Shown here piece by piece: positions 1-45,400 of a stretch of 64,000 bases of DNA. The position numbers were made by a program, and so were the translations under genes. The DNA is taken from the NCBI GenBank assembly GCA_947589095.1, contig CANQBX010000001.1, forward strand, positions 1 through 64,000, read 5' to 3'. The notes beneath the pieces were generated by a model. The model had not been told where the DNA came from and searched no databases. It worked only from the letters and a program-made list of their open reading frames with translations. How positions within the stretch are numbered: the first letter of the stretch is position 1; the number at the start of each line of letters is the position of its first letter. The stretch comes from an uncultured Lachnospiraceae bacterium (GTDB lineage Bacteria; Bacillota; Clostridia; Lachnospirales; Lachnospiraceae).

Positions 1-71
1 AAAAGCTGGGAGAATCTTTTATTTATAAGGAAAAACGGTACATTCTTTGCATAGTCTTCTGCTTTGCATAG

Positions 72-17033: not shown

Positions 17034-17053
17034 GCGCAGAAAGGAGAGAAAAA

Positions 17054-17965: not shown

Positions 17966-17994
17966 ATAAATCTAAGGAAAGGATGGAAAAACAA

Positions 17995-18129: not shown

Positions 18130-18141
18130 AGGAGGCGCAGA

Positions 18142-19272: not shown

Positions 19273-19320
19273 TGGACAGGGCATGGCGGGGATGCACCCG
19301 CCTGCCCGGAAAGGAGGAAG

Positions 19321-20352: not shown

Positions 20353-20365
20353 AAGGAATGATAAT

Positions 20366-20452
20366 ATGGCAGCGGTAAGGAAGGAGAACTGGCGGCTGGT
20401 CAATATATCCGCTGAAGATAAGCAGCATTGGTCTGCCATATATCGATGGTGA
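20366..20452 (+). CDS. Tiny ORF coupled to next gene, 28 residues
   Basis: ATG 20366, preceded by AAAGG, opens 28 codons (MAAVRKENWRLVN, ending SAIYRW). Its TGA overlaps the ATG of the next gene in ATGGTGA. The overlap suggests translational coupling. The peptide itself is not recognised and may act only as a translated leader. Confidence 0.4.
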   Translation: MAAVRKENWRLVNISAEDKQHWSAIYRW

Positions 20453-20844: not shown

Positions 20845-20845
20845 A

Positions 20846-22126: not shown

Positions 22127-22150
22127 CCGGGAGCGAAAGGAGGCGGAATC

Positions 22151-23813: not shown

Positions 23814-23906
23814 CTATGGCAGGCTATGGAGTGATGGAGAGCAGTAATGCGTTACAGACCCAACAGAGGGTTTGAAATATAGATATTTTAGTAGAGGAGG
23901 AAGAAA

Positions 23907-24497
23907 ATGAACCAGTGTACATTTTTAGGAAGACTGACAAGAGACCCCGAGATCCGGTATACCGATTCGGGAATGGCGATTGCGAGATTCAGCATTGCCG
24001 TGGATCGCAGGCGGGGCGGTGACAATGAGCAGCAGGCCGATTTTTTCGACTGCGTGGCATTTGACAAGCGGGCAGAGTTCGTTGAGAAGTATCTGACCAG
24101 CGGGTTAAGGATTCTTGTCAGTGGGGAAATGCATAACAACAATTATACGAATAAAAACGGCGACAAGGTGTATAAGGTTGAGCTTACCACGAACGTAATT
24201 GAATTCGCGGATGCAAAGCGGGACCGAACCGATGAGGATACGCCTGTTCAGCAGGAAAACGGGGCTGGAAAACCGGCGTCATCGGGAAACCGAAAGAGTC
24301 AGTCGGCGCCTGCCGCAGGAAGTACCCGTCCGGCGCAGTCGGAAAGCAGCAGAGAGGCAGCTCCGGCACCGGCTCGTCGGGCCGCCGGGCGGGGAACAGG
24401 CGGCAGAAGGCCGGCCGGCAGCGCACCGCGTACCGAAAACGACGGATTTATGAATATCCCGGAAGGGATTGAGGATGAAGGGCTGCCGTTCAACTAG
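23907..24497 (+). CDS. ssb: Single-stranded DNA-binding protein
   Basis: A 196-residue SSB. The OB fold occupies about 1-105 (FLGRLTRDPEIRYTDSGMAI, FFDCVAFDKRAEFVEKYL, ILVSGEMHNNNYTNKNGDKV). A basic Gly/Ala/Arg-rich linker follows, then the acidic C-terminal tip EDEGLPFN. That tip departs from the usual DDDIPF because Asn ends the protein, so interaction with host SSB partners may be altered. It coats ssDNA of the element during transfer, replication or recombination. A good AGGAGGAAG ribosome site precedes it. Confidence 0.95.
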   Translation: MNQCTFLGRLTRDPEIRYTDSGMAIARFSIAVDRRRGGDNEQQADFFDCVAFDKRAEFVEKYLTSGLRILVSGEMHNNNYTNKNGDKVYKVELTTNVIEFADAKRDRTDEDTPVQQENGAGKPASSGNRKSQSAPAAGSTRPAQSESSREAAPAPARRAAGRGTGGRRPAGSAPRTENDGFMNIPEGIEDEGLPFN

Positions 24498-24515
24498 ATT
24501 TTTTATACAGGCAAA

Positions 24516-24545
24516 GGCTGCCGGGAAGATTTCATTCCGGCAGCC
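24516..24545 (+). repeat. Hairpin between ssb and the next gene
   Basis: GGCTGCCGG (24516-24524) pairs perfectly with CCGGCAGCC (24537-24545). No T-run follows, so it is not a classical terminator. It may stabilise the ssb mRNA 3' end or mark a processing site. Confidence 0.5.
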
Positions 24546-24566
24546 GCCTGAGAAAGAGAGAAGAAA

Positions 24567-25085
24567 ATGAAAAAGAAGATCATGATCGTGGGAATCTGTT
24601 TTTTTGGCATGATCCTGCTCCATATTTCGTTTCCGCTGCTGCTTGGCGTACTTGTTAATGTACTGTCAGTGGCGGTGCCGCTTCTTTTCTATCATTTTGT
24701 CATCCGCGAGGGATGGAGGATCCGGTTGGATCGGAAGAAAGAAAAAGCGGAAGGCGTACCCGAAGGCGGGGAGAATGAATCGGATGTGGAAACAGAAGAG
24801 GAAGTACAGGTTCCGCCTGATGATATGGTGACCGCATGGTATCTGGACAGCGGGAAGGCGAGAATCCGTAAGATTATATCGGAACAGAAACAGAGGGGAT
24901 ATTCTGAGTGCTGGATCCGGACGGATGGAATCTGCAATGTGAGGACAGAGAAAGGCTACCGCCGTGCCGGATGTCTGCCTAACTATCCGGGAGCCTTGGT
25001 TCAGCATGTGGAACAGCTCCTGAGAATAGATGGATGGGCAGCCGAGCAACAGGGAAAATATCTCCATATCATGTGGAATGTATAG
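24567..25085 (+). CDS. Unknown membrane protein with soluble C-terminal domain
   Basis: A 172-residue protein with two hydrophobic helices at about 5-50 (IMIVGICFFGMILLHISF and LLLGVLVNVLSVAVPLLFY). An acidic linker follows, then a C-terminal domain (ARIRKIISEQKQRGYSECWI onward) that is probably cytoplasmic. No family is recognised. It lies 12 bp upstream of the RecD-type helicase gene. An attachment role for replication proteins at the membrane is a guess from position only. Confidence 0.6.
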   Translation: MKKKIMIVGICFFGMILLHISFPLLLGVLVNVLSVAVPLLFYHFVIREGWRIRLDRKKEKAEGVPEGGENESDVETEEEVQVPPDDMVTAWYLDSGKARIRKIISEQKQRGYSECWIRTDGICNVRTEKGYRRAGCLPNYPGALVQHVEQLLRIDGWAAEQQGKYLHIMWNV

Positions 25086-25097
25086 CGGGAGGACGGA

Positions 25098-27326
25098 ATG
25101 ATTGTTCAGTTTGTATCAGTACTGTATCAGAATGCGTCCAACGGTTATACAGTCGCAGTGTACGAGACGGCAGAGACGGATAAGATTCCGAACTCTGCCG
25201 TCCGGCAGTTGCGGGGACGCAATATTTCGTTTACAGCAGTGGGGACAGAACTTCCTGTGATGCGGAATGCGGAGTTTGAAATGGAAGGAAGCTGGAAGGA
25301 ATCGGAACGGTATGGGAAACAGTATTATGTGGACTGGTTCCGGATCATCCTTCCTAAGACGCGGGATGGGATTCTGGGTTATCTGTCTTCCGGTATCATT
25401 AAGGGAATCGGGCCAAGTACCGCGGCAAAGATCGTGGATTTGTTTGGTACGGATACATTCCGGGTTTTTGATGAGTCTCCAAAAGAACTTCTGAAGGTAA
25501 AAGGGATCACAGAAAAAAGGCTGGAGGAGATCATGGAAACCTACCGGGGAAGTGCCGGGATCCGGGAACTTTTGGCATTCCTGGCGCCGTACCATGTAAC
25601 GCCTAAAAAGGCAGAGAAGATCCAGGAACACTTTGGCGTAAAGGCGGCCCGGATCGTGAAGGAGCAGCCGTACCGGCTCTGCGAGGTCAAAGGATTTGGA
25701 TTCCTGACGGTTGATCCGATTGCCAGGGCCAGCCGTGACTTTGCACCGGATGACCCGGAACGTGTCAAGGCGGCCATACGGTATGTCCTGAAAGAAGCGG
25801 AGAAGGAAGGACATCTGTTTTTGGAAAGTCCTGAGGTGATAGAAAGGGCTCTCCGGCTTCTGAACCAGGGCTTTGCGCCGGATACGGTTAAGACCGCAGA
25901 TGCAGTGACTGCGGGGAACTCCCTGGTCTTGACGGAGAAAAAACTTGGAGCAGACGGAAGGGCCGTTTTTCTGAAAGAGAACCGGGACGCGGAAATAAGC
26001 GCTGCGTATCATATCAACCGGATTCTTTCCGCTTCCGCCCCTGTTTATGACGTAGAACAGTTATTGGAGGAAACGCAGGCAGAATTTGGGATCATTCTGG
26101 CTGAGAAACAGAAAGAGGCTGTCCGGATGGTGTTTAAGTCCCCGCTTTCCATCATTACCGGCGGCCCCGGTAAAGGAAAGACGACCAATCTTCGAATCAT
26201 CCTGCGGATTTATGAGCGTCTGGAAAGAAATGGGGAAGTGTTGGCCTGCGCACCTACCGGAAGAGCACGGAAACGCCTGGCGGAAAGTACAGGTTACCCG
26301 GCCATGACGATCCATAAAGCATTGTACCTGAAGGAAGATGATGATTACGATACAGATGCAGATATGCTTTTGGAAGACTTTATCATCGCGGATGAATTTA
26401 CAATGGCGGACATGAGGCTTGCAAGTATCCTGTTTTCCAGAATCAAGAGCGGAGCGCGGGTCGTATTGGTCGGCGATGTGGATCAGCTTCCATCTGTGGG
26501 GCCTGGCAATGTCTTTAAGGAAATGATCGAATCCGGCGTGATTCCGGTTACGGTTCTGGACGTGTTTTTCCGGCAGGCGCAAAACTCCAGGATTATTATC
26601 AACTCAAACCGGATGAACCAGAACCAGAAGAATCTTTTATATGGCGAGGATTTTCGGTTCGTGTATGCGGACAGTCCGGAGGAAGCATCGGTGAAGATTC
26701 AGGAGATCTACCGGGAAGAACTTGCGAAAAACCAGAATGACCCGGACAGAGTGCAGGTGTTATCCCCTTTGCGTGTGAATACGGAGGCCGGTGTTAATAC
26801 CCTGAACCGTAATCTGAGGGAATTGGTGAATCCACCGTCATTTAGTAAAGCAGAATGGAAAGCGGGCGCACGCTTGTTCCGAGTCGGGGATAAAGTCATG
26901 CAGACGAAAAACACAGAAGCCGTATCAAACGGTGATATCGGAAGACTCACGGATATCAGCGTAAACAGGGACGGCCAGAAGGAGATCACGGTAGATTACG
27001 GTGATGTCCAGAAGAATTATCAGGAGGAGGAACTGGAGATTCTTGACCATTCCTATGCCATGAGCATCCATAAGAGCCAGGGAGCCGAGTATCCGGTCGT
27101 TATCATACCGGTTCTTAAAAGTTTCTATCCGATGCTGCGTCGGAATGTATACTATACCGGCATAACAAGGGCAAAGGAGCGGGTCTACCTGGTCGGAACG
27201 AAACAGGCACTCTATATGGCGATAGCAAATGGGAAAGAAGAGCGGAGAAATACCCTGCTTGGCAGACGTATTCGTCAGGCGGCTGCGAAGAATGGGTACC
27301 AGGAAGCGAGCAAAAAAGCTGCGTAA
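25098..27326 (+). CDS. recD2: RecD2-type DNA helicase
   Basis: A 742-residue SF1B 5'-3' helicase. An N-terminal OB-like part is followed by helix-hairpin-helix units (SSGIIKGIGPSTAAKIVDLF and LLKVKGITEKRLEEI). Walker A is GGPGKGKTT (355-363), Walker B-like IIADEFTMADM comes next, and motif VI-type YAMSIHKSQGAEYPVVIIPV precedes YTGITRAKERV. Length and order match RecD2/YrrC rather than RecBCD RecD. It probably unwinds element DNA with the SSB encoded upstream. GGGAGG precedes ATG 25098. Confidence 0.93.
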   Translation: MIVQFVSVLYQNASNGYTVAVYETAETDKIPNSAVRQLRGRNISFTAVGTELPVMRNAEFEMEGSWKESERYGKQYYVDWFRIILPKTRDGILGYLSSGIIKGIGPSTAAKIVDLFGTDTFRVFDESPKELLKVKGITEKRLEEIMETYRGSAGIRELLAFLAPYHVTPKKAEKIQEHFGVKAARIVKEQPYRLCEVKGFGFLTVDPIARASRDFAPDDPERVKAAIRYVLKEAEKEGHLFLESPEVIERALRLLNQGFAPDTVKTADAVTAGNSLVLTEKKLGADGRAVFLKENRDAEISAAYHINRILSASAPVYDVEQLLEETQAEFGIILAEKQKEAVRMVFKSPLSIITGGPGKGKTTNLRIILRIYERLERNGEVLACAPTGRARKRLAESTGYPAMTIHKALYLKEDDDYDTDADMLLEDFIIADEFTMADMRLASILFSRIKSGARVVLVGDVDQLPSVGPGNVFKEMIESGVIPVTVLDVFFRQAQNSRIIINSNRMNQNQKNLLYGEDFRFVYADSPEEASVKIQEIYREELAKNQNDPDRVQVLSPLRVNTEAGVNTLNRNLRELVNPPSFSKAEWKAGARLFRVGDKVMQTKNTEAVSNGDIGRLTDISVNRDGQKEITVDYGDVQKNYQEEELEILDHSYAMSIHKSQGAEYPVVIIPVLKSFYPMLRRNVYYTGITRAKERVYLVGTKQALYMAIANGKEERRNTLLGRRIRQAAAKNGYQEASKKAA

Positions 27327-27344
27327 TATGCACAGGAGGAACAA

Positions 27345-29162
27345 ATGGGTAAAGTAAGATTATTTGCAAGCTGGACATTTGGCAGGCCCCTGCCGGATCC
27401 GTTTGCATCGGAATGTGTGAGGATCGGCCAAAAAAACACGCAGGATAGTGACTGCCTGTCCATACATAATCATGCCGGACGCAAGGTTGCAACGATGCAC
27501 TCGGCATCACTCAGGGCGCTGATCGCGCTGGCCGGCCTGGTCAACGGGGATGAGGAAGGCGGAACCGGTTATCATATGAAGAACGGCGAGATCACCTGTT
27601 ATTGTCTGGAGCATATCAGGGAAGAAGCCAGCGTCCGTAAAAACCGGGTATCTGTGTATGATCCGGCAGGCGGGATATGGAAATGTGTAGTAAAAAGCGG
27701 TTCATCGGAATTACCGCACCCGCCGATTCAGGATAAGGGAAGTGCCGGGATGGAGGCTCTTCTTGTTATGGCCTATGCCAGCACGGTAAAGGAAGGCAAA
27801 CTGTTTGATGCGGAATTTGCGTCAGACTTTCACGATTTCAAGGAATGCTGGAAGAACGGCACAGATATAAGCCGGATGATGAGTCTGGGCTACCGTTTGT
27901 GTGATAATCTGTACCGGAGAATCGAAGGTGCAGAAAACCTTGGCAGTGCGGGGATTCCTTTTCTCAATGACGCAATCGCATCCGGTAATGTACCGATGCT
28001 GCAGCCGGCCGTGGCGGAAGCCAACGGTTATTCCCTGACAAAAATAACAAACGGAAGATTTGAAGTGCTTCCGGTTCAGTCGTGCGGCAGTTCCGAAACC
28101 ATAGGCAGTTTGAAAGAAAAGTATGACAGACATTTCCTGCTGACGGAAGAGGAAAAAGCGCTTGTGCCGCAGCTCCCGGAAACATATGACGTGCCGGAAG
28201 AAGTGACGGAAATTCTGGATGCTGTCTGTAATACGCCGATGCGGGTATTCATGAGTGCCGGCGAGTCCGGAACAGGAAAAACGACCAATGCCAAAATGGT
28301 GGCGCAGCTTCTGGGACTGCCCTATTACTTTTTCACATGCGGGGAAGGGACGGATGAAGTGGATCTCATTTCGTCTATGATTCCCAATGTAGGAAAGCAA
28401 AACTCCCAGACGACTGCCGAGCGGCCGTCTTTCCATGATTTATGCATGGATCCGGCATCCGCTCTTGTAATGGCGGGAGGTACCTATGAGGAAGACCTTG
28501 ATGAAGAAACCGCTTTTCTTAAGATTCAGGAAGCGCTATACCGGAAAGGCATGGAAGACGGACAGAAGGAAAAGGATTTCCAACTCGTAGAATCCAGCAT
28601 TGTGACCGGATGCCGGAGACCTTCTGTGATCGAGATCCAGGAACCCTCCGTTATCACTAAGGCCGGTACGCTTGTAAAGTTGAACGGTCTTTTAGACGAT
28701 GGTGCAGCCATTACCCTGACTAATGGGGAGGTGGTAAGGAGAAACCCGGAAACAGTGATTTTGTTGACGACAAATATGGGCTACAAAGGCTGCCGGGGAT
28801 TCAATGAATCTGTATTGTCCAGGATGCGCATGATCCTGTATTCAGATCCTCTGGATGCCGAGGCCATGGTGAAACGGGTCCAAAAGAAGGTGCCTGCCGG
28901 ATCAGTAAGGGTGCCGCTCCTTAGAAAGATGGCGGCGACTGTCACTTCAATTCAAGAATTCTGCAGGACAGAGATGATAGACGGAGGTGTATGCGGCTAT
29001 CGCGAATATGAGGACTGGGTATGGGCTTATCTGGTACAGAGAGATATCTGCAGTGCGGCCAGAAGAACCATAGTGGCGAAGGCCGCTCCGAGACAGGAAG
29101 ATCGGGATGAAATCTATAATACGCAGATCCTGACAAAGTTTCAGGAAGGAAAAGCGGCGTAG
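27345..29162 (+). CDS. MoxR-like AAA ATPase
   Basis: A 605-residue protein. The N-terminal 270 residues are not recognised. The C-terminal half is an AAA+ module of the MoxR/CbbQ type with Walker A GESGTGKTT (306-314), CGEGTDEVDLISSMIPN, and a sensor region VILLTTNMGYKGCRGFNESV followed by LSRMRMI. Such ATPases remodel partner proteins and are typically encoded beside a VWA-domain protein. Here the next gene is exactly that, 12 bp downstream. Many homologues load or release metals or activate enzymes; the substrate here is unknown. Confidence 0.88.
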   Translation: MGKVRLFASWTFGRPLPDPFASECVRIGQKNTQDSDCLSIHNHAGRKVATMHSASLRALIALAGLVNGDEEGGTGYHMKNGEITCYCLEHIREEASVRKNRVSVYDPAGGIWKCVVKSGSSELPHPPIQDKGSAGMEALLVMAYASTVKEGKLFDAEFASDFHDFKECWKNGTDISRMMSLGYRLCDNLYRRIEGAENLGSAGIPFLNDAIASGNVPMLQPAVAEANGYSLTKITNGRFEVLPVQSCGSSETIGSLKEKYDRHFLLTEEEKALVPQLPETYDVPEEVTEILDAVCNTPMRVFMSAGESGTGKTTNAKMVAQLLGLPYYFFTCGEGTDEVDLISSMIPNVGKQNSQTTAERPSFHDLCMDPASALVMAGGTYEEDLDEETAFLKIQEALYRKGMEDGQKEKDFQLVESSIVTGCRRPSVIEIQEPSVITKAGTLVKLNGLLDDGAAITLTNGEVVRRNPETVILLTTNMGYKGCRGFNESVLSRMRMILYSDPLDAEAMVKRVQKKVPAGSVRVPLLRKMAATVTSIQEFCRTEMIDGGVCGYREYEDWVWAYLVQRDICSAARRTIVAKAAPRQEDRDEIYNTQILTKFQEGKAA

Positions 29163-29174
29163 GAGGTGTTGGAA

Positions 29175-31262
29175 TTGAGTACAAAGGCACTTCAGAGCGG
29201 CAGCAGGGCCATCCTTCGCAGGATGAGGGATTCTCTTACGGATCAGGAACTGTTTTTATCCATACAGTATGGCAGCGCTCTATCTACCTATGCACGGGCC
29301 CTGGCGAAAGAAAAAGACATTCGAATGAAGGTGGAATATGACATATCACCTGAAAGCGAAGCCGCATATACGGATGGCAGACTGATCTATCTGAATACGG
29401 GAAACTGTATTACCAATCAGCTTTCGGACAGAAAACAGAAAATCCAAAGCCATGAGGGACTGGTTGCGCATGAATGCGGGCATATTCGTTTTTCGGATAT
29501 GAATCGTCGGCAGGCCTATGTGGAGGGGTACAGTGAAGGAATCATTTTTCCGGAACCGCCCATTGCAGGAAACGCACAGGATAAGAAGAGTTGGTCTGAA
29601 ATCCAGGACAGGCTGGATCGCAAGGATTTGGTGACAATCGGCGTCCTGCAGAAGCTGGCGGCGGACCTTCATAACATTCTGGAGGATGTCTATATCGAAC
29701 TGGCGATGAGTTATGAATACCAGGGAAGCGTGAAATCAGCGTTCCGGATGAATGCAGAGCTTATTACTTCCTCTATCCCGGACGAATCTATGCGGAAGAT
29801 GAAAGGCGAAGAGGATCTGGTAATCATGGTGGATCTCATTCTGCGGTACGCAAGGATGGGAAAGACGGAAGCAGAACTTGGATACAGTAAAGACTATATC
29901 CGGAGTCTGAACCAATGCCGGGGAATCATTGACAGAGCGGTAGTAAGCCAGGATCCGGACAGCAGGTACCGTGCAGCAAACCAGCTGATCCTGAAACTGT
30001 GGAAATATGCGAAGGGTGTAGTCCGCAGGGCCAGACAGAATCTGAAGGGTATACCGGACAAGGAGATGCAGAAAGAACTGGAAGATTACCTGAAGAAGAA
30101 CTGCAAATGGATCGTACTCTCGGAGAGCAATGACAGGGAACAGGGTAAGTCCCGTATGAAGATTCCCGGCTGGACAGGGAAATCTTCCGGTGACAATGAC
30201 GGTTCTGCTGCAGATGGTACCGAAGACGAAAATGGTAATGTTGATGGAAATCAGGAAGGACAGGAACAGCTAAAGAAGTTTCGCTCCGGGCAGGAAGAGC
30301 CGGATACGGGGAAAAACTGCTCAGGTATAACCGGCCGGATGCCCGAAATAGTGAACGGTCTTGCGACGGAAAAACTGACCAGAGAAAAGGAACAAAGCCT
30401 TATCGAAAGGCGTAAGCAGGAAATCAAAAGGCAGGATTTGGGCACTGTCCACAAAGAGATCGGAGTGGAATATCACCGGAGCATTGAGCCCGGTGAGAAC
30501 GCGATCTGCATCTATGACAAGCTTGAGCCGGAGCTTCAGAAGGTAGTCCGGCATCTGGAAAAAGAAATCGAGGAAATCCTGGTACGCAGGGACGAGGGGC
30601 TTGTCACTGGCCTTTATATGGGAAAAAGGCTGGACAGAAGCAGGCTGTACCGGCAGGATGGGAAACTCTTTTCCAGGCGTGTTCTTCCGGATGAGGGGAT
30701 ATCTCTGGCGGTCGCAATCTTGGTGGATAATTCAGGCTCCATGCGGTGGGATCGCCGCATTAGATGCGCGCTGAAGGCTGCCATGTCGCTCTATCTGTTC
30801 TGCAGCAGACTTGATATCCCGGTTATGGTGTATGGTCATTCCAATCACGATGAGGGGATCAAGGAAATTGTGGATATTTATTCCTATGCAGATTTTGATT
30901 CCAGAGACGGGAAGGATTATCTAAGAATCGCTGAAATGACTACGCATGATGGGAATCGTGATGGGGCGGCACTTCGTATTGCAGGGGATTGCCTTCTTAA
31001 ACGGGAAGAGGAAGTGCGGCTTCTGATCCTGATCTCGGATGGAAAACCAAACGCAAATTATTATTACGGCGAAACTGCACGGAAGGATTTGCAGCAGATC
31101 AAGAAAACTCTGGAAAAACAGGGGATCCAGTTGTTTGCCGCTGCTATAGGGGATGACAAAGAGAATATTGAAGAGATCTATGGAAATGGTTTCCTAAATA
31201 TTTCTGACTTGGAGACGATGCCCGTAAAGCTGGGAAAACTACTAACACAGTACATCAGATAG
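29175..31262 (+). CDS. CobT-like VWA protein with HExxH motif
   Basis: A 695-residue soluble protein. Near the N-terminus VAHECGHIRF contains HECGH (99-103), the HExxH zinc-protease signature. The middle is acidic and low in complexity (about 330-400). The C-terminal quarter is a von Willebrand A domain with the MIDAS motif DNSGS (518-522) and LILISDGKPNAN, most like CobT. TTG 29175 is chosen (AGGAGG eight bases upstream); GTG 29166 overlaps that site. It pairs with the MoxR-like ATPase upstream, the usual MoxR-VWA arrangement. Whether the HExxH site is proteolytic is not shown. Confidence 0.85.
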   Translation: MSTKALQSGSRAILRRMRDSLTDQELFLSIQYGSALSTYARALAKEKDIRMKVEYDISPESEAAYTDGRLIYLNTGNCITNQLSDRKQKIQSHEGLVAHECGHIRFSDMNRRQAYVEGYSEGIIFPEPPIAGNAQDKKSWSEIQDRLDRKDLVTIGVLQKLAADLHNILEDVYIELAMSYEYQGSVKSAFRMNAELITSSIPDESMRKMKGEEDLVIMVDLILRYARMGKTEAELGYSKDYIRSLNQCRGIIDRAVVSQDPDSRYRAANQLILKLWKYAKGVVRRARQNLKGIPDKEMQKELEDYLKKNCKWIVLSESNDREQGKSRMKIPGWTGKSSGDNDGSAADGTEDENGNVDGNQEGQEQLKKFRSGQEEPDTGKNCSGITGRMPEIVNGLATEKLTREKEQSLIERRKQEIKRQDLGTVHKEIGVEYHRSIEPGENAICIYDKLEPELQKVVRHLEKEIEEILVRRDEGLVTGLYMGKRLDRSRLYRQDGKLFSRRVLPDEGISLAVAILVDNSGSMRWDRRIRCALKAAMSLYLFCSRLDIPVMVYGHSNHDEGIKEIVDIYSYADFDSRDGKDYLRIAEMTTHDGNRDGAALRIAGDCLLKREEEVRLLILISDGKPNANYYYGETARKDLQQIKKTLEKQGIQLFAAAIGDDKENIEEIYGNGFLNISDLETMPVKLGKLLTQYIR

Positions 31263-34818: not shown

Positions 34819-34838
34819 CCGGAAAGGAAAGAGTGTAC

Positions 34839-35636
34839 ATGATAGAAAAAATATATGACAATATCAAATCAGTGAAAGAGATCAACCAATTAGCTGCAGA
34901 CCTTCGCCAGACCAGGCAAAAGGAGATGCTTTTGGTTCTGGCGGGAAAGTATAATCTGCCCTGTAAGACGGTAGAAGATTTCATGACCGGCAAAAGACGA
35001 TTTCTGGTCGATGGCGGAGATATGGCATCTTCTTACAGTACGGTTAAGAGCAAGTTGGTAGACGAAATGATGGATTTGGGATATGAACCGTTTGCGAAGC
35101 CAATCGGGGATTATCTGCTAAGACAGGATATTAGTGAGAAACTTGAAAAACAGATCCTTCTTCCGTACAAGACTCTCCAGCGTTGCATCGAATACCTGAT
35201 GGACAAGGCATATAGCATGATTGATGAAAGCCTGAAAACACCAGGTCGGATGCTTAGCTATGCTGCCACTGATGAAACGGTTTATGAATGGGTCTGGGAG
35301 TATTACCAGACAGACGATGCAGGCAAGGTGGCTGAGAAGGAAGCGGACGCAGACAGTAAATTTCAGAAGAATGCGGCTTCAGGAGCTACACGTTCTGCAT
35401 CCGCAACGAAAAGCAGTGGTAAAAAGGCATCTGGCAGGCGAAAAGGGCCATCAGCCGGAAAAACATCCGCATCAGCGCAGCCGCAAAAAGCAACACCGGC
35501 CAGGATTGTTCATGATTTTGCTGTCCCGCAAGATACCGAGACTGCGGAAAAGGAACAACTGGCGGAGAATGGAGACAAGACACAGATGGCAGGACAGTTT
35601 TCCCTGTTCGATATCTTGGAATCTAAATCAGCATGA
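34839..35636 (+). CDS. PcfK-like / AcrIIA9-family protein
   Basis: A 265-residue protein. The core (LVDEMMDLGYEPFAKPIGDY, LLRQDISEKLEKQILL, TLQRCIEYLMDKAYSMI, then DETVYEWVWEYYQTDD) fits the PcfK-like family, some members of which are described as Cas9 inhibitors AcrIIA9. A lysine/alanine-rich linker follows, and the protein ends QFSLFDILESKSA, a motif common to these proteins. ATG 34839 is preferred to GTG 34833. The PcfJ-like gene two genes downstream reproduces the pcfJ/pcfK neighbourhood of conjugative plasmids. Family placement is from memory; Cas9 inhibition is inference. Confidence 0.7.
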   Translation: MIEKIYDNIKSVKEINQLAADLRQTRQKEMLLVLAGKYNLPCKTVEDFMTGKRRFLVDGGDMASSYSTVKSKLVDEMMDLGYEPFAKPIGDYLLRQDISEKLEKQILLPYKTLQRCIEYLMDKAYSMIDESLKTPGRMLSYAATDETVYEWVWEYYQTDDAGKVAEKEADADSKFQKNAASGATRSASATKSSGKKASGRRKGPSAGKTSASAQPQKATPARIVHDFAVPQDTETAEKEQLAENGDKTQMAGQFSLFDILESKSA

Positions 35637-35649
35637 CGGAGGATTTCGG

Positions 35650-36225
35650 ATGAGGATTGCATATAAAGCATTTGCACCGGATCTTTCCTGCACGTCCGGC
35701 GGAAACCACTATCAATATCAGATTGGTGTATGGAATGAAGAACCAGAAGCCAACTGTGCAAAAAACGGTTTCCATTGTGCCGAAAACCCGCTTGACTGCC
35801 TGTCTTACTATCCTGACTGGGATCATGCCGTTTATTATATGGTTCTTGTCGATGGGGATATTGATGAGGATGCGTATGACAGCCGTATATCCTGTACAAG
35901 GCTGAAACTGGTCAAGCAGCTGGATAAGATGGAGTTTGTGATTCATGGCTTGAATTATATACAGAAATATCCTTTTCTTCCCGAAAATAAACTTGTGAGA
36001 AGGAATAGAGGATCAACCGAACGGGGATTTGTAATTGTTAGGGGCAGGAGTCCCAAAGCCATGGGAGGACAAATAGGAGCCATCCTGGGATTTGCTAAGG
36101 AAGAGAAAAGCAGCAGGCGAATCGTAGAGATTGGATTGCAGGTGGTCGATGGCAATAATATCTTGCCGGATACTCTATACAATATCAATGGAAAACGATG
36201 TTCTGAGAAAGGAAGGAAGAAATGA
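35650..36225 (+). CDS. DUF7666-like protein
   Basis: A 191-residue protein. Its start (AYKAFAPDLSC, then YQIGVWNEEPEANCAKNGFH, then CAENPLDCLSYYP) matches the KAF...GFH.CENPLDCL pattern of proteins now grouped as DUF7666, found on phages and mobile elements and of unknown role. ATG 35650 is preceded by GGAGGATTTCGG. The frame is open far upstream, but that part overlaps the previous gene and is a shadow. The 3' end overlaps the PcfJ-like gene by four bases (ATGA). Confidence 0.7.
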   Translation: MRIAYKAFAPDLSCTSGGNHYQYQIGVWNEEPEANCAKNGFHCAENPLDCLSYYPDWDHAVYYMVLVDGDIDEDAYDSRISCTRLKLVKQLDKMEFVIHGLNYIQKYPFLPENKLVRRNRGSTERGFVIVRGRSPKAMGGQIGAILGFAKEEKSSRRIVEIGLQVVDGNNILPDTLYNINGKRCSEKGRKK

Positions 36226-38462
36226 TAAAGAAAACACTGGAGAATATGCCCCGCCTTTATGCAACGAAAACGCTTCTTCAAAAGGCCTTGATAGAAAAGG
36301 ATACGGAAGAAAGGACATACAATTATAAGAGACGGGATGATTCCCACTATCCTATATTACTTCGATGTGATATTGCGGAAGGAATCCTTCATGTGTCCGT
36401 ATTCCTGAGTTGTGATTTACGGCTGAAAAGCCGAAAACCCTTGTATGACATCTATATTGATAAAGCGAAGAAGCAGTACACAACATGGGATAACCTGAAC
36501 GGAAAATGGCTAGAGGCGAGGATTTATAATCTGCCCGCATTTTTGTATTCCATTTACGCTGAGGTTTCACACAATGAGCGGATTTATGTTTCTCAGAAGG
36601 ATGATGCCATGATAAAAGAGTACCTTGAAACGCAGAACGGCGGTTTCTATGGCATTGGTGAGTATCAGGACCGTCTTGGTAAAGAAAGGCTCCTGGCGCA
36701 GCGAAAAAGGGAAACAGACCAATGGGATAACATGTTGTCAGGTATTCCATCATTACCGAAGGATTGGCTACACTGGGTGGATAAGCATGGCATCAAAGAC
36801 AATTATATCTTCTATGAATATTCGAAAAAGAAGAGAAAGGAAGGATATTGTACCTGGTGCGAGCGAAATGTACCCATTATAGATCCTCATCATAATAAAA
36901 AAGGAATATGTCCCAGGTGCCATCATGAAATCATATATAAGGCAACTGGAAGGGCAGGAAGATTTGATACAAATGTTGTAGAAGTTTTTTTAATACAAAG
37001 AATGAAGCAGGGGTTTGTGATCCGACAGTTTTCCGCTTACAGACAATATGAAAAAGGAGTGTACAGGAATCCAGATCATAGAATCTTTGAAGAAAGACGT
37101 GTCATTTTTCCAGATTGCCTGCATGGAACGGTCTTTTCCTGGGGACGGTATAAGGACGGCCGCTACCGTTGGAAAAAAGGAGAGTACTATCATGGATATT
37201 TTGGTTACAGGTACTATAACGGTTATTATTGCAGCTTCGATGCGAATCTGTATACCAGAAACCTTGCGGCGCTCGAAAAAAGTGTTTTGAGGAAAACAGC
37301 TTTAGTGCAGATGCTGCGAATAAGGAATCGTCTTGATCTTCTTGCATACATGAATTGCCTGGTAAAGTATCCCTGTCTGGAGCAGATTGTGAAAGCGGGT
37401 CTGAATACATTGGCTTATGATTTTTTACATGGCAAAGGGATGGAAGGAATTTCAGGGGACAGCGAACTTGCCAAGGCTCTGGGGATTGATAATTACCGCC
37501 TGAAACGTCTGAAACGTCTCAATGGAGGTATTGCACATCTGCTCTGGCTGCAGCATGAGAAAAAAGCAGGGAAAGAATTCGCTGATGAATTGATTCAGTC
37601 CTTTATAGCTTCGTCAATTCTTCCCTCTGATATGGACTTCATTCTGAACAGAATGAGCGAGGTGAGAATACTTCATTATCTGAATAAGCAAAGCCAGTTG
37701 GTTCAGAGAGAACCGAAGCAATTACTTTCTACGTGGCAGGACTATCTTTCCATGGCGGAGAAATTACATATGGATGTAAGTAAGGAATTATTTTATAAGC
37801 CTAAGAACCTGATTATCAGCCATAATCTGGTGTCAGCAGAATGCAGAGGCGTCAGCGCGGCGGCCCGTGAGGAGGAAATACTGAAGAAGTATCCGAATGT
37901 GAACGAAATCTGCCGGTTCGTTGCTGAAAAGTATACGTATGTCGGAGAAGATTTCCGGATCGTGGCACCGATGGGTGTGAAGGACATCGTACGGGAAGGT
38001 ATTGCATTGGGACACTGCCTGCACAGCAGCGATATTTATTTTGCGAGAATTCAGCGGCGTGAGAGCTATATTCTTTTTCTGCGGAGAAACAAAGAGCCGG
38101 ACTTGCCGTTTTATACGCTTGAGATCGAACCGGACGGTACAACCAGACAGAAGCGTACTACCGGGGACATACAGGGAGAAGACTACGAGGAAGCCCGTTC
38201 TTTTATTAAGGAGTGGCAGAAGGTAATCCAAAAGCGCCTTTCGGCTGAAGACCGGATGCTTGCAAAAGTAAGTTCCGTTCTGCGGAAAGAGGAATTTGAG
38301 GAGTTGCGAGAGAAAAAGACGAGGATCCGAGGAGGGCATCTGGCTGGGAAGCTGTTGGTTGAGGTGCTGGAAGCGGATCTTATGCTGGCTGAACAGATAA
38401 TACAGAATGAAAATGAGACATTAGTATCAGCAGGAAGCGATATGGAAGCCAGGGCAGCGTAA
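36222..38462 (+). CDS. PcfJ-like protein
   Basis: A 746-residue protein. A central CxxC pair twice (YCTWCERN and CPRCHHEIIYK, about residues 208-240) suggests a zinc ribbon. The C-terminal region has the PcfJ signature: APMGVKDIVREGIALGHCLH, then YILFLRRNKEPDLPFYTLEI, then the tail helix FIKEWQKVIQKR. PcfJ genes occur with PcfK on conjugative plasmids such as pCF10 and on many Firmicutes ICEs; the biochemical role is not established. Starts in a four-base overlap with the preceding gene. Confidence 0.85.
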   Translation: MIKKTLENMPRLYATKTLLQKALIEKDTEERTYNYKRRDDSHYPILLRCDIAEGILHVSVFLSCDLRLKSRKPLYDIYIDKAKKQYTTWDNLNGKWLEARIYNLPAFLYSIYAEVSHNERIYVSQKDDAMIKEYLETQNGGFYGIGEYQDRLGKERLLAQRKRETDQWDNMLSGIPSLPKDWLHWVDKHGIKDNYIFYEYSKKKRKEGYCTWCERNVPIIDPHHNKKGICPRCHHEIIYKATGRAGRFDTNVVEVFLIQRMKQGFVIRQFSAYRQYEKGVYRNPDHRIFEERRVIFPDCLHGTVFSWGRYKDGRYRWKKGEYYHGYFGYRYYNGYYCSFDANLYTRNLAALEKSVLRKTALVQMLRIRNRLDLLAYMNCLVKYPCLEQIVKAGLNTLAYDFLHGKGMEGISGDSELAKALGIDNYRLKRLKRLNGGIAHLLWLQHEKKAGKEFADELIQSFIASSILPSDMDFILNRMSEVRILHYLNKQSQLVQREPKQLLSTWQDYLSMAEKLHMDVSKELFYKPKNLIISHNLVSAECRGVSAAAREEEILKKYPNVNEICRFVAEKYTYVGEDFRIVAPMGVKDIVREGIALGHCLHSSDIYFARIQRRESYILFLRRNKEPDLPFYTLEIEPDGTTRQKRTTGDIQGEDYEEARSFIKEWQKVIQKRLSAEDRMLAKVSSVLRKEEFEELREKKTRIRGGHLAGKLLVEVLEADLMLAEQIIQNENETLVSAGSDMEARAA

Positions 38463-39792: not shown

Positions 39793-39889
39793 CCGTAGTT
39801 TGATAATTGGAAGGGACAAAACAGAGGGCAGAATAATACCTTTTGTATGAAAATTCCAGATTTGGATATAATATATCCAGGTGAAGAAT

Positions 39890-40129
39890 ATGGGAGAAAG
39901 CAAAGAAGATATCAAGGCTGTAAGCAGACATGATTTGAAAAGTATAAACTCAGTAAAGATTGATTCATCGGCGGGGAAGCAGGAGAGGATACGCTCCTTT
40001 ATTGAACAGATAGGTGATCCGAATTGCTATCTGGATGGGGATATGGTTGTCAAGATCAGTTATGCGGACACGGATGTCACACTGGAAGAACGGCTGATAT
40101 CCTATCTTGGCCTGCTGATGCAGGGATGA
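39890..40129 (+). CDS. DUF6870-like small protein
   Basis: A 79-residue acidic protein. Its second half, IGDPNCYLDGDMVVKISYAD followed by TDVTLEERLISYL, resembles the small DUF6870-type proteins often encoded next to serine recombinases on Clostridia elements. ATG 39890 has AGGTGAAG upstream; GTG 39881 is in frame too. A role as excision or regulatory partner of the recombinases is a guess from position. Confidence 0.6.
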   Translation: MGESKEDIKAVSRHDLKSINSVKIDSSAGKQERIRSFIEQIGDPNCYLDGDMVVKISYADTDVTLEERLISYLGLLMQG

Positions 40130-40211: not shown

Positions 40212-40241
40212 TTGACGTTAGAATTATGATAATGATATAGT
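40212..40241 (+). promoter_or_regulatory. Putative promoter of the recombinase operon
   Basis: TTGACG (40212-40217) and TATAGT (40236-40241) have an 18-bp spacer and lie about 100 bp before the first recombinase. The match is moderate. Confidence 0.5.
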
Positions 40242-40340
40242 GATAGTGGTCAATGTATGTAGCTTTGTGCTGAGGATAAGCAACCGAAATGGATTTCCTG
40301 TATTGGCAGATTCTGCAATAAGACAATCAGGAGGTGCATT

Positions 40341-41966
40341 ATGGCTGCGAAAAATGGTGTCACCTATAGGGCATTTGCCTATCTTCGGTTATCCCGAGAA
40401 GATGGTGACAAGGAAGAAAGCAACAGTATTGCCAATCAAAGACAGTTCATAATGGATTACGTAAGCCGGCAGGATGACATTGTCCTTATGCGTGAATACT
40501 GCGATGACGGGTTCACCGGAACGAATTTCGAGCGGCCTCGGTTCAGGATGATGATGAGTGCCATCGAACGAGGGGAAGCTGACTGCGTGATTGTAAAGGA
40601 TCTGTCCAGATTTGGAAGGGACTATATTGATTCCGGAAAATACATACAAAAGATTTTTCCCATGCTTGGCGTGCGATTCATCGCGATAAACGATAATGTG
40701 GATTCCGGCCGTTCGGACCGGTCAGATGATCTGATTATTCCTTTTAAGAACCTGATAAACGATTCTTATTGTCGAGATCTCTCACTGAAATTGAGAGGTC
40801 AGTTTCGCGTGCAGAGAAAAAAGGGAGAATATATCGGGGCCTATGTGTTTTTTGGATATGTAAAATCAAAAACAGATAGACATAAACTGGAAATTGATCC
40901 GTTTGCAGCAGATGTTGTGCGTGAAATTTTCCAGATGAAACTTAAGGGGAACAGTCAGCAGCAGATCGCGGATGATTTGAACGCTAAGGGGATACCGGCG
41001 CCGGCAGAATACAAAAAGCTTTGCGGTCTGAAGTATCAAAGCGGTTTTCAGCAGGGGGCGGAGAGTTGCTGGACAGCAGTCGCTGTTACCAGGATTTTGA
41101 CGAATCGTATCTATACAGGATGTCTTGAGCAGGGGAAAAGGAGTACGCCGAACTACAAAGTAAAGAAAATGGTGGAACGGCCGCAGGATGAGTGGGTTGT
41201 TGTGGAACATAATCATGAACCGATTATAGATGATAAGGTTTTTACTGCTGTTCAGCGGGTCCTAAAAAGAGATACAAGGATATCGAAAAACGGAGTAGTT
41301 CGTCCTCTTTCTGGGTATCTGTACTGCGGGGACTGTAAGAACCAGATGGTTTACCGGTCGGTAAAACGAAGCGGAGTGATCCACGGGTATTATGTATGCG
41401 GCGCCAACCGTGCCGGCCGTGGCTGTAGCAGCCATAGCTTTTCGGCAGAAAAGCTGGAAGAAGCCGTTTTGCGGGCGATTAATGCATGGATAAAACTGGT
41501 TACGGATGTAAGAAAAGATTCTCAGAAATTGGGGGATGAGAGGCTCAAGTTTTATCGGGCACAGCGGTATGACGATCTGATAGAAGCCAAAAGAAGGGAG
41601 ATTGACGATAATAAAGATTACCGGATGAAGCTTTATGAATCCCTTGTAGATGGAGTCATTACGCGTGAGGAGTATGTGACACTTCGCCAGCGTTACACGC
41701 AGAAAATCGAAGAATGCCAGGAAGAATTAAAACGACTGGAGGAAGAATTGGGGAAAATCAATGACGGTCTGCTTATGTCCTGCTCCTGGATGGATCATTT
41801 TCTGCAGTATGGGCAAGCAGAAAGCTTAAACCGTGAACTGGTTATGCTTGCAGTCGATCAGATATTTATATATGAAGACAAGCGGTTTGAGATTGTCTTT
41901 AATTTCAAGGATGAACTGGAAGAAATCCGAAAGTATCTGGATTATGTATCGAAGGAGGCCGGGTGA
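40341..41966 (+). CDS. Large serine recombinase 1
   Basis: A 541-residue site-specific recombinase. The resolvase catalytic domain (1-160) has the nucleophile Ser18 in AYLRLSRED, plus VIVKDLSRFGRDYI. The recombinase domain (about 165-290; YVFFGYVKSK, then QQIADDLNAKGIP) and a zinc ribbon (YLYCGDCKNQM, then CGANRAGRGC) follow, then a coiled coil (about 400-475). All key residues are present, so it should be active. It integrates or excises the element together with the two recombinases that follow. AGGAGG lies before ATG 40341. Confidence 0.95.
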   Translation: MAAKNGVTYRAFAYLRLSREDGDKEESNSIANQRQFIMDYVSRQDDIVLMREYCDDGFTGTNFERPRFRMMMSAIERGEADCVIVKDLSRFGRDYIDSGKYIQKIFPMLGVRFIAINDNVDSGRSDRSDDLIIPFKNLINDSYCRDLSLKLRGQFRVQRKKGEYIGAYVFFGYVKSKTDRHKLEIDPFAADVVREIFQMKLKGNSQQQIADDLNAKGIPAPAEYKKLCGLKYQSGFQQGAESCWTAVAVTRILTNRIYTGCLEQGKRSTPNYKVKKMVERPQDEWVVVEHNHEPIIDDKVFTAVQRVLKRDTRISKNGVVRPLSGYLYCGDCKNQMVYRSVKRSGVIHGYYVCGANRAGRGCSSHSFSAEKLEEAVLRAINAWIKLVTDVRKDSQKLGDERLKFYRAQRYDDLIEAKRREIDDNKDYRMKLYESLVDGVITREEYVTLRQRYTQKIEECQEELKRLEEELGKINDGLLMSCSWMDHFLQYGQAESLNRELVMLAVDQIFIYEDKRFEIVFNFKDELEEIRKYLDYVSKEAG

Positions 41967-41970
41967 TTGT

Positions 41971-43623
41971 ATGGCACGACGGAGCAGAAGAAAAACAACA
42001 ACCGATTCGAGGCCGTTGGAGAGTGCGTATTTATGTGGATTGTATCAGCGGTTGTCTGACGAGGATCGGAGTGATTTGGAAGAGAATTCGATAGAGAATC
42101 AACGAAAAATCTGCATAGATTATCTCAGTCGGAATCCGGGAATCCGGTTGGTTTCTGTTTATACAGACAATGGCTTTACAGGAACGAATTTTTCGCGCAG
42201 CGGATTTTGCCAGATGATGGAAGACATTGAATCCGGAAAGATCAACTGCGTGATTGTAAAAGATTTATCCAGACTGGGGAGGGAGTATATTGAGACAAGC
42301 GAATTGGTCGAGCGGGTCTTTCCGCAAAAGGGGATACGGTTTATTGCTGTCAATAATCAATATGACAGCTTAAGGGATACGACGGCCAATCTGGCAATAT
42401 CGATCCCTGTGGCGAATATTGTAAATGATTATTACGCAAAGGATACTTCCCAAAAGATCAGGAGCGCAATTCAGGCAAAAATGTCTGCGGGTGAGTTTAT
42501 GGCGTCTTCAAGCAGCATCCCGTATGGGTACATAAGAGGGCAGGATTCATATGAGGTCGATGAAGAGGTCCGCGGGAATATAGTCAGGCTCTATCAGCTG
42601 CGGGCGCAAGGAAAGTCTTATGTGCAGATTGCAAGGATCATGAACGATGAAGGGATCCCATCGCCGGGAAGACTTCGCTATATGCGGGGAATCACGGCGG
42701 ACGAGCGGTTTGAAACGGCGGTCTGGGATCGGAAGACAATCAGGTCTATCGTTTATGACGAAGTGTATTTGGGGCATCGAGTACATGGAAAGATCAAACG
42801 CGAGAAAATGGGGGCACCGAAAAGAAAAACTGATCCTTCTGAATGGCAGTACATTCGGAATGCCCATGAGGCAATCATATCGCAGGAATTATTCGATAAG
42901 GTACAAAAATATAACAGAACTCAGGAGGATCGGCGCTCGGGTTTTCAGCCACGGGCAAAAGCGGTGGATGATAACAGGAAATTTCTGAGAGAGAAAATTA
43001 TCTGCGGGGATTGCGGGGCCAGAATGGCTGGTATGAAACGCATTCAAAGGGAAGGCAGCAGATGTGGAAATTCCATTTATTATCAGTGCAGCAGCTATTT
43101 GCAAAAAAATCGGAAGGAGAATTGCAGCAATCATTATATTCCGGAGAGAGATATTATATCAGAAATTCGGAAGGTTCTGCTTTTCCATGCCTCAGTGATG
43201 GTTGATTATCAGAAACTGGGTTCTTTACTTAAGAAAGGCTGTGCACCGGGTGCAGAACTGCAGGCGATAAGGAGACAGACAGAAAAACAGAATGAGAAAA
43301 AGAACCGGCTGTGGCAGGATTATGTGGATGGATTACTGAGTAAGGAAGAATACGTATATGTGAAACAAAGAACGGATCAGGTAATCCGGGAGTTGGAAGA
43401 GAAGGAGGATAATCTAAAAAAAGAGGAGGAAAAGCAAAAGGATCTCAGGTCGGCAGCAGAAAAATGGCTGGAGCTTGCCGATAAGGACTGGGGGAAAGAG
43501 GGAATCTTACCTGACAGCTTAGGATTTCTTATTAAAGAGATCCGCATATATCACGACAAACGGATAGAGATTGTCTTAAACTACCGGGATGAATTCCTGA
43601 ATGCATATGAGGAGGATATCTAA
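41971..43623 (+). CDS. Large serine recombinase 2
   Basis: A 550-residue protein with the same layout as its neighbours: a basic N-terminal extension, nucleophile Ser29 in [23 protein letters not shown], recombinase domain (IPYGYIRGQD, then YVQIARIMNDEGIPSPG), zinc ribbon (IICGDCGARM, then NRKENCSNH) and coiled coil. The three sequences are clearly diverged, so they are old paralogues and not recent duplicates. It starts five bases after the first recombinase gene ends, at ATG 41971. The frame is open upstream, but that part is a shadow. Confidence 0.95.
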   Translation: MARRSRRKTTTDSRPLESAYLCGLYQRLSDEDRSDLEENSIENQRKICIDYLSRNPGIRLVSVYTDNGFTGTNFSRSGFCQMMEDIESGKINCVIVKDLSRLGREYIETSELVERVFPQKGIRFIAVNNQYDSLRDTTANLAISIPVANIVNDYYAKDTSQKIRSAIQAKMSAGEFMASSSSIPYGYIRGQDSYEVDEEVRGNIVRLYQLRAQGKSYVQIARIMNDEGIPSPGRLRYMRGITADERFETAVWDRKTIRSIVYDEVYLGHRVHGKIKREKMGAPKRKTDPSEWQYIRNAHEAIISQELFDKVQKYNRTQEDRRSGFQPRAKAVDDNRKFLREKIICGDCGARMAGMKRIQREGSRCGNSIYYQCSSYLQKNRKENCSNHYIPERDIISEIRKVLLFHASVMVDYQKLGSLLKKGCAPGAELQAIRRQTEKQNEKKNRLWQDYVDGLLSKEEYVYVKQRTDQVIRELEEKEDNLKKEEEKQKDLRSAAEKWLELADKDWGKEGILPDSLGFLIKEIRIYHDKRIEIVLNYRDEFLNAYEEDI

Positions 43624-45216
43624 GTGAGGACTGACAAAAGAATCAATGCGGCATATTTCAGGCTTTCCCTTGCGGACGGCGACATAGTTTTTGAAGAAGG
43701 GAATGGAAAACGGGAAAGCAACAGTATAGCTTCTCAGCGGCTTTGCATTCATGAATATGCGAGGGCATATCTGCAGTTGGAAGAACCGCTGGTAGAGTTC
43801 GTGGACGACGGCTATACAGGAACAAATTTCGAAAGACCGGGATTTAGGCGTCTGCTTCAGGAAATCATGGCAGGTAATGTGCAAACCCTGTTTATCAAGG
43901 ACCTCTCCAGGCTGGGCAGGAATTATATTGAAGTAGGATATTACCTTGAAAAGTATTTTCCATTCTACCATGTCCGGGTAATTCTCGTGAATGATGGATA
44001 TGACAGTGGAGAAGGGAGTGGGGAGATACCTGGACTTGATCTCGTAATAAAGAATTTGATCAATGAATGGTATAGTCGAGATATCTCCAGAAAGATAAAA
44101 AGCGTCGTCGATATGAAAAAGTATGACGGTGAATATGTTTATGGTGCGGTTCCGTTTGGGTATGTAAAGGGGAAAGAGAAGAACACAATTGAAATTGATC
44201 CGCCTGCGGCAGAAGTTGTGAAGAGTATATTTGACCTGGCCTGCGGGGGAAAAACGATTACGCAGATCGCCAGGGAACTGAATGAACGAAAGGTCATCAC
44301 GCCAAGCGTATATATGGCGCAGATCCGGAAGAATTATAAGATCAGGGAATTCTGGACCTACGAATCAGTACGGAACATTATGACAAACCGAATTTATACA
44401 GGAGATACGGAAGTTTTCAAATCCCATGTCGTACAGGTTGGAAGTGACAGAGTGAAGCAGATTCCGCCTCGGGAGAGGCCGGTGATTGAGAATACTCATC
44501 CGGCGATTATAAGCAGGGAAATGTATTTTGAAGCCAGGAATGTGATTAAGCACAAAGGAGAGACCAAAAAACATGGCAAAGGAGACATTCTTTCGGGTTA
44601 CTTGGTATGCGGCTGTTGCGGGAATCGTTTGATCAAGGGGAAGGATGGAAATAAAAAGTATTACTGCGCCTCGTCCCGGTACGCCGGGGACAAAGATTGC
44701 AGTCAGGTAAAGGTGCCGGCCGATAAGGTGAAAACGGCACTGCTGCACGCGATCCGGATGCAGCTCGATATTGCGGGTATTTCCGTGACAGAAGCAATAA
44801 GGGGGCAGAAGGTGTCGTACAGGCAGCAGGAACTGGACCGGGAGCTTAAGAGAATATCGAACAGACTGGACTCCTGGATGGATGAATCTCTTGCCCTATA
44901 TGAGGAGTATATTACCGGGAAGATTGATAAGATATTATATATGAAGAAGAAGGAGCAATTGATTACCGATAAGAAGGCACTGGAGCAGCAAAAAGATGAA
45001 CTGGAGGCCCAAAGGGCAAAGAATAATCTGCAGAAGGAAAAGATAAATCTTCATAACCAGTATCAGAAAAAGTATGGAGCATTCGATACCTTAAATGATG
45101 TTATGATGAAAGAGTTTATTGACCGCGTAACGATTATGCCGGGTGGGGAGATGCAGATTAAATGGAATTTCAAAGAGAATAAGCTTTTGGCACTGGCCGA
45201 CTACAATCGGACATAA
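43624..45216 (+). CDS. Large serine recombinase 3
   Basis: A 530-residue protein. The nucleophile is Ser15 in AYFRLSLAD, then [14 protein letters not shown]. The recombinase domain ([12 protein letters not shown], then [17 protein letters not shown]), zinc ribbon ([11 protein letters not shown], then SRYAGDKDC) and coiled coil are complete. GTG 43624 begins right after the TAA of recombinase 2, with GAGGAGG nine bases upstream. Its stop lies only 67 bp before the spoIVB junction, the usual place of the integrase gene next to an attachment site. Confidence 0.95.
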
Positions 45217-45277
45217 TTTTTCGGAATCTGACAGAAGTTTGCAAAAAAGGAGAAAATACTGTTGTCCATTCCTTGAC

Positions 45278-45294
45278 ACAATCGTGAGCGGCTC
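45278..45294 (+). other. spoIVB: Right attachment junction (attR-like) in spoIVB
   Basis: The sequence changes here from element DNA to spoIVB codons. The spoIVB frame becomes recognisable at GTGAGCGG (45284-45291), where intact genes read Gly-Met-Ser-Gly-Ser-Pro. The crossover core is probably inside or just before TGAGCGG. The exact core cannot be set without the left junction. Confidence 0.65.
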
Positions 45295-45400
45295 GCCGAT
45301 CATTCAGGATGGGAAATTGATCGGAGCTGTAACACATGTGTTTATCCAGGACAGTACGAGAGGGTATGGGATATTTGTTGAAAACATGCTAAAGCATTGA
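45284..45400 (+). pseudogene. spoIVB: SpoIVB sporulation protease, 3' fragment
   Basis: The last 38 codons read [20 protein letters not shown] and continue through [13 protein letters not shown] to TGA. This is the C-terminal end of SpoIVB, the serine protease (S55) that signals from forespore to mother cell and triggers pro-sigma-K processing. The first Ser of the SGSP block is the catalytic nucleophile in family members. Upstream codons are replaced by element sequence, so this fragment is not a working gene while the element is in place. A strong terminator follows. Confidence 0.85.

Follow-up and report, generated by a model that had tools for sequence, protein, structure and literature searches.

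Results

Gene content and right end of the element

The window, i.e., the whole stretch of 64,000 nucleotides analysed here (contig C1 of the genome G000), harbors the following features on its plus strand. Its beginning (1..776) comprises a 35-bp end of an insertion sequence (IS; positions 43-77) and the 3′ half of a reverse-transcriptase gene that is continued on contig C47. The element genes that follow encode a 3930-aa protein with 12 SpaA domains (913..12705), DUF5688, YqaJ-like, ERF, RecD2-like helicase, AAA and VWA proteins (17009..31262), and PcfK-like, DUF7666 and PcfJ-like proteins (34833..38462). A gene for an 82-aa DUF6870 protein (39881..40129), whose position makes it a candidate directionality factor or regulator, precedes three large serine recombinase genes, r1 (40341..41966), r2 (41833..43623, the open reading frame as listed, in which the part alike to relatives begins at about 41998) and r3 (43624..45216). 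The latter adjoins the junction and is the probable integrase. The triplet is headed by a promoter and a leader (40212..40340). Downstream of r3, the right att arm TGTTGTCCATTCCTTGACACAATCG (45260..45284), which together with the left arm on C47 forms an imperfect inverted repeat (15 of 25 positions matching), is followed by the dinucleotide TG common to both junctions (45285..45286; partner C47:7162-7163, minus strand) and by the 3′ part of spoIVB (45287..45400), which consists of 37 codons starting with the SGSP block and a stop codon.

When 27 proteins of the element were compared with Pfam, PcfK and PcfJ were matched, and neither a relaxase nor a T4SS ATPase was found among these proteins. 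Within the window, the element has a GC content of 0.47-0.49, versus 0.59 in the right flank. ParA and ParB genes are located near the left end of the element in the window's genome, and among 18 left ends examined, several of them short, 6 have ParA-like genes nearby. In addition, the element contains a 134-aa resolvase-like open reading frame (L004 3341-3745, minus strand), where by eye the motif YARVCYQDQ carries a Cys at the place usually occupied by the catalytic Ser.

The two halves of spoIVB in the window's genome

A search of the window's assembly (97.6% complete, 192 contigs) with the profile TIGR02860 matched the 3′ part of spoIVB at profile positions 361-398 (E 1.1e-16) and revealed the 5′ part on contig C47 (7159-8304, minus strand; profile 4-362, E 4.4e-73). 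The SGSP block, which contains the catalytic serine of S55 peptidases, is missing from this 5′ part. A third match was weak (profile 117-173, E 2.7e-4), and no intact second spoIVB was detected in this assembly by the profile. The junctions translate as GGIVQGM|VSCYN at the left and DTIV|SGSP at the right end, whereas the spoIVB gene of the intact relative G114 reads through the site without interruption, and the flanks of the element join in frame at TG.

A single group II intron reverse-transcriptase gene is divided between the starts of contigs C47 and C1, its 5′ half running to EGSPQGG on C47 and its 3′ half starting from GGNLSPLL in the window. Moreover, both contigs share the 35-bp inverted end, which we interpret as the opposite ends of a single IS copy that was left unassembled between them. 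Given this common intron gene, apparently broken by one IS, we consider the contigs neighbours, which yields an element length of approximately 52 kb (7.2 + 45.3 kb) plus one IS. The first-pass annotation had proposed a large element inserted in spoIVB at the SGSP block. This proposal is borne out: the missing 5′ part is present at the left junction on C47, and the intact second copy that would have spoken against an interruption was not encountered in the assembly. When compared with G114, the 3′ part (45287-45400) shows a dS of 0.70 over 37 codons and the 5′ part a dS of 0.22, which is a small sample.

The att sites and the reading frame predicted after excision

The ends of the element form a serine-integrase attP, composed of 25-bp imperfect inverted repeats around TG. 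Both junctions could be read in 19 genomes, all of which have TG at both, and in all 19 the flanks joined at TG yield ...QGM|SG... in frame. Outside this set are G340, where the left arm shows AG in place of TG, G042, G125 and G337, in which no tail (i.e., 3′ part of spoIVB) was found, and the unpaired G323. In the 19 genomes, 15-21 of the 25 positions agree when the two arms are paired as an inverted repeat, compared with a mean of 7.1 and a maximum of 16 for shuffled arms (3800 shuffles) and a mean of 8.6 and a maximum of 12 for the right arm against the host tail. On paper, excision would therefore restore spoIVB exactly and without a scar. These observations are in line with the gene-restoring geometry and the recombinase triplet suggested in the first-pass annotation. 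In G337, the contig carrying r3 (L124) stops exactly at the TG core; in this one case the contig end is what coexisting attR and attP would cause.

The recombinase triplet and its leader

The three recombinases are positional orthologues across the elements, all in one orientation and near one end as described for triplet ICEs and dICEs. Between the element of G000 and those of G143 and G301, r1 is ~45%, r2 ~39% and r3 ~45% identical. Of 29 loci examined, 28 contain the complete triplet, the exception being L124, where r1 had no match. In 21 of 25 loci, as judged by our own pattern, the triplet is preceded by a gene resembling that for the 82-aa DUF6870 protein, the Pfam assignment being based on the window copy; of the four missing loci, L112 starts too late, L129 is divergent, and in L109 and L128 the motif can be recognised by eye.

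The promoter ahead of the triplet resembles by eye the sigma-A type and not a sporulation type. In the leader (40248-40340), two hairpins are conserved across loci. Among 16 sequences, four of the five pairs of hairpin 1 display pair-keeping changes on both sides, and hairpin 2 pairs the ribosome-binding site; it formed in 10 of 11 single folds, the eleventh taking another GGAGG. No Rfam family matched between positions 39800 and 45500.

A Vescimonas replicon is annotated with the DUF6870 gene and three recombinases in the same order, so that the module is wider than spoIVB. Since the genes behind the left arms vary from element to element, we consider it a single integration module on several backbones. 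The best r3 relative among the plasmid records listed (20 of 35) is 32% identical, and the best one listed among phage records is 42% identical.

Distribution and mobility of the split

Among the Clostridia, 24 genomes were found in which spoIVB is interrupted at this codon. Hence, the interruption itself stands as annotated, yet it is a mobile family rather than the oddity of a single strain. Within the genus, 2 of 26 genomes are affected, namely G000 and G320. In the family, 20 of 299 genomes, picked for middling scores plus G114, were followed up, a choice from which no family rate can be derived; G042, G125 and G143 are split at profile position 364, and in G065 the gene runs off the contig at 354.

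A scan of named genomes for loci with an r3 alignment retained 80 of 111 loci. A spoIVB tail lies downstream of r3 in 24 of these 80 (in L172 with a length of only 18 residues), and three further contigs (L109, L113 and L124) end at the core or within the tail. Taken together, 27 of the 29 loci with at least 44% identity to r3 (all but L128 and L135) lead into a spoIVB tail or into a contig end that falls at the core or within the tail, versus 0 of 51 remoter loci. In these alignments, r3 marks a spoIVB-linked clade. Via the r3 loci 28 genomes were reached. In 19 of them spoIVB is split at profile positions 360-364, including G347, which also has a different intact spoIVB; six have an intact gene without a split 5′ part, three of these carrying an additional tail, in one genome just a tail was seen and in two there was no match. 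Both halves reside on one contig and strand in G328, G334 and G335, where they are 50.5 kb, 108.4 kb and 115.1 kb apart, respectively. Commensal isolates are among the carriers, namely Schaedlerella arabinosiphila DSM 106076 (115 kb) and Eubacterium sp. 14-2 (108 kb). Among 55 r3 relatives in IMG/VR, 6 carry the tail.

Apart from this site, spoIVB is broken elsewhere in three genomes, G130 (C50 20911-22550), G093 (C62 and C128) and G205 (C20 762-2016), the breaks lying at profile 170/177, 206/209, 123/118 and 249/248. At locus L224 (G323:C18), the spoIVB 5′ part continues in frame across the left junction into a ParA-like protein, resulting in an open frame of 724 codons.

In seven genome pairs r3 is near-identical (dS 0.02-0.06), while the dS of the spoIVB 5′ parts ranges from 0.8 to saturation. 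Near-identical r3 genes thus sit in hosts with very different spoIVB genes, which indicates that the element moves horizontally and that insertion at this codon is recent and recurrent. Consequently, intact halves alone are no proof of long-term restoration. We likewise discarded vertical inheritance of the split as proof of selection: between G000 and G320 the recombinases differ by a dS of 0.43-0.49 and spoIVB by 1.16, which renders independent insertions likelier. The only close pair with similar distances, G332 and G342 (r3 dS 1.05, spoIVB dS 0.90), is not conclusive. No excised attP circle was found in 33 genomes or in IMG/VR.

Sporulation genes of the carriers and loci with displaced tails

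Of the 24 split genomes, 19 have a full-length sigG (E below 1e-100), as do 21 of the 26 genomes of the genus. A full-length sigG was not found in the split genomes G000, G320, G042, G323 and G329. In G000, where spoIVA is intact, the expected place of sigG falls at a contig end (L329, G000:C74 1-315), and its absence therefore supports no conclusion. In G320, the gene neighbouring the expected place is followed by other genes. In G323 and G329 both spoIVB and sigG are cut, and the 3′ part of sigG starts near codon 90 immediately after serine-recombinase open reading frames. Some carriers may thus have lost sporulation, or sigG may be a second site of the same kind.

The 3′ part of sigG stands alone at four loci, L337 (G329:C66 2128-4162), L336 (G323:C320 3819-5764), L334 (G310:C66 6556-7721) and L335 (G313:C170 2935-4100), where it starts near codon 88-91 at V/IPMIxGE. 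Directly upstream, G329 encodes a 486-aa serine recombinase with 22-25% identity to r1-r3; in G323 open reading frames resemble by eye a broken recombinase, and in G310 and G313 a divergent 208-aa open reading frame precedes the fragment. From its sequence context, sigG looks like a second sporulation gene serving as an insertion hotspot. In G328 (C157 50963-51952), a full-length sigG starts ~110 bp after the spoIVB tail.

Three genomes contain loci that appear restored. In G336, an intact spoIVB is followed by 12.5 kb with r1-r3, a right arm and a second tail; counted from the core, the two tails are 99.2% identical across 133 bp. The second tail of G317 is 93% identical, and the genes in between resemble by eye a toxin-antitoxin pair, whereas G237 has three extra tails at 85-92%, each after a right arm. 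In these draft assemblies, in which mixed strains are possible, the arrangements look as if spoIVB had been rescued repeatedly next to remnants of elements. Displaced tails occur in arrays at L092 (G237:C27 8880-11603) and L225 (G323:C259, positions 192 and 1931), where every tail immediately follows a right att arm, with a spacing of ~1.2-1.7 kb and small open reading frames in between. Four other genomes in which a further tail accompanies an intact spoIVB (G347, G325, G330 and G301) were rejected as evidence for restoration: their tails are 74% identical or unalignable and, as they differ from the intact gene, the genomes are probably mixed bins.

Discussion

Role and compartment of SpoIVB

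The first-pass annotation regarded SpoIVB as needed for sigma-K activation. This requirement is borrowed from Bacillus and doubtful here: the window's genome encodes one M50 peptidase, and hence we found no separate SpoIVFB in it, as described for C. difficile and C. saccharolyticum (PMC3533761). C. difficile is reported to be devoid of bofA, spoIVFA and spoIVFB, and in a B. subtilis spoIVB null mutant spore formation is blocked also apart from sigma-K (PMC11392383, PMC3789822). A need for SpoIVB in spore formation of these hosts is plausible.

Both B. subtilis and C. difficile produce SpoIVB in the forespore; in the latter, SpoIVB is sigma-G-dependent and SpoIVB2 sigma-F-dependent (PMC11392383, PMC3789822). 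In the genus of the window, CATACTA is located 17 bases after a conserved hexamer in 23 of 24 regions upstream of spoIVB and resembles by eye a sigma-G-like -10 element. However, scoring of 92 upstream regions for sigma-G gave a mean of 8.4, hardly above the 8.0 of shuffled sequences, with a score of at least 9 in 15 of 92 regions versus 190 of 1840 shuffles. The comparison with skin drawn in the first-pass annotation does not hold in this respect: skin leaves the chromosome in the mother cell, while the model species make SpoIVB in the forespore, so that a mother-cell excision would not suffice. If spoIVB is expressed in the forespore, the element has to be excised from the spore-bound chromosome, unlike skin.

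Relation to known elements

The SCC cassettes of staphylococci likewise employ large serine recombinases, occupy one chromosomal site, rlmH, and grow by tandem accretion, and rlmH keeps working. The spoIVB elements share the recombinases, the single site and the tandem accretion (G237, G317 and G336), but in contrast to rlmH the target is broken in 24 genomes. In the window's genome spoIVB is cut before the SGSP block and thus falls outside the SCC type, in which the target is functional after integration. The interruption at one precise site, together with a serine recombinase and att sites that restore the frame on paper, conforms to elements of the skin and gin type.

The gin element is a non-phage island in gerE of Bacillus cereus ATCC10987, present in several strains, with three serine recombinase genes and a proven sporulation-specific excision by GirC and the 42-aa GirX (PMC5595907). 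As described there, gin resembles the spoIVB element in its three serine recombinases, in a sporulation gene as target and in the possible precise reconstitution. It differs in its size of 28.6 kb, with girA-girB apart from girC, as opposed to an adjacent triplet in ~52 kb plus an IS, in a shared sequence of 9 bp as opposed to TG only, and in that its excision from a mother-cell gene is proven, whereas for the spoIVB element, found in hosts of many genera, we infer excision from a forespore gene (PMC5595907). Going by their description, the triplet ICEs and dICEs of Streptococcus are similar as well, having co-oriented recombinases at one end, very short direct repeats and a disrupted target, albeit mutT, traG or hsdM instead of spoIVB (PMC4701971); with TG as a direct repeat of 2 bp, the spoIVB junctions are within their range of 2-8 bp. 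Skin (sigK), SP-beta (spsM), vfbin (spoVFB) and yin (yabG) are serine-recombinase elements in sporulation genes whose excision can also restore the interrupted gene; these are prophage-like and mostly reside in mother-cell genes, and spoIVB was not encountered among the targets named (PMC10747680).

An element interrupting spoIVB was not found in titles or abstract openings of the open-access papers listed, which agrees with the novelty claimed in the first-pass annotation. The spoIVB-splitting elements form a real and widespread mobile family with a new target and probably with a compartment logic that is new within a known kind of element.

A model for excision and its alternatives

We somewhat favour the explanation that a mobile element, with r3 as the most likely integrase, splits spoIVB at TG and that its excision before or in the forespore restores the gene. 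This supposes that carriers still sporulate and that the element leaves in time, possibly as a spore-borne circle. The integrase would recombine attP with attB, i.e., the spoIVB codons for GIVQGM-SGSP, with the crossover at TG. Integration would detach the SGSP nucleophile block from the remainder of the protease, and the integrated state should consequently give no active SpoIVB. Recombination of attL with attR, aided by a directionality factor, would then restore spoIVB scarlessly before or in the forespore, where model species make the protein. The excised circle may travel in the spore and reintegrate after germination; parA and parB near the left end would suit a circle in need of inheritance.

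The serious rival is permanent loss of sporulation: the element would park in a gene that vegetative cells can spare, carriers would be asporogenous or becoming so, and rare excision would serve transfer. We consider this less probable than not, but well within reach, as the points counted against developmental excision speak for it, namely the apparently recent insertions, the lack of an excised circle in 33 genomes and IMG/VR, the sigma-A-like promoter ahead of the triplet, and sigG, which was not found full-length in the assemblies of 5 of the 24 split genomes and is cut, like spoIVB but by other elements, in G323 and G329. However, 19 of 24 split genomes retain full-length sigG, G000 retains spoIVA and its expected sigG place falls at a contig end, and the spoIVB halves stay open with an in-frame joint in 19 of 19 genomes. 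Developmental excision is further favoured by the intact spoIVB beside displaced, core-starting tails in three genomes and by the precedent of gin, with its three serine recombinases and sporulation-specific excision. A skin-like switch, in which only the mother cell excises the element while the spore retains it in integrated form, is improbable. Although known intervening elements act on mother-cell genes such as sigK and gerE in the accounts cited above, SpoIVB is there a forespore product of sigma-G or sigma-F in B. subtilis and C. difficile; the CATACTA motif in 23 of 24 regions of the genus likewise argues for the forespore by eye, with the general scoring not above shuffles. Finally, the halves lie on two of 192 contigs in the window's assembly, but that they were never separated and the split is an assembly artefact is hardly credible, given that the same junction codon recurs across 24 genomes, three of them with both halves on a single contig.

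Developmental excision, the reading that we favour, suggests that a cell may have to release the element from its chromosome before it can make a spore. An extension of it, a skin element of the germline, is more speculative and we deem it rather unlikely: every viable spore would stem from a released chromosome, a circle partitioned by parA and parB would outlast sporulation within the spore and reintegrate at germination, and unrelated serine-recombinase elements may use sigG likewise. If true, plasmid-like and integrated states would be coupled to the spore cycle. The att sites, defined here at the base level, open the way to direct tests. If excision is needed for SpoIVB, how the element persists when the broken gene serves the future spore becomes a testable question, and a split sporulation gene would be no ground for scoring a genome as a non-spore-former from sequence alone. 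Spore formation and spread between hosts would then be gated by a horizontally moving element in many gut Clostridia.
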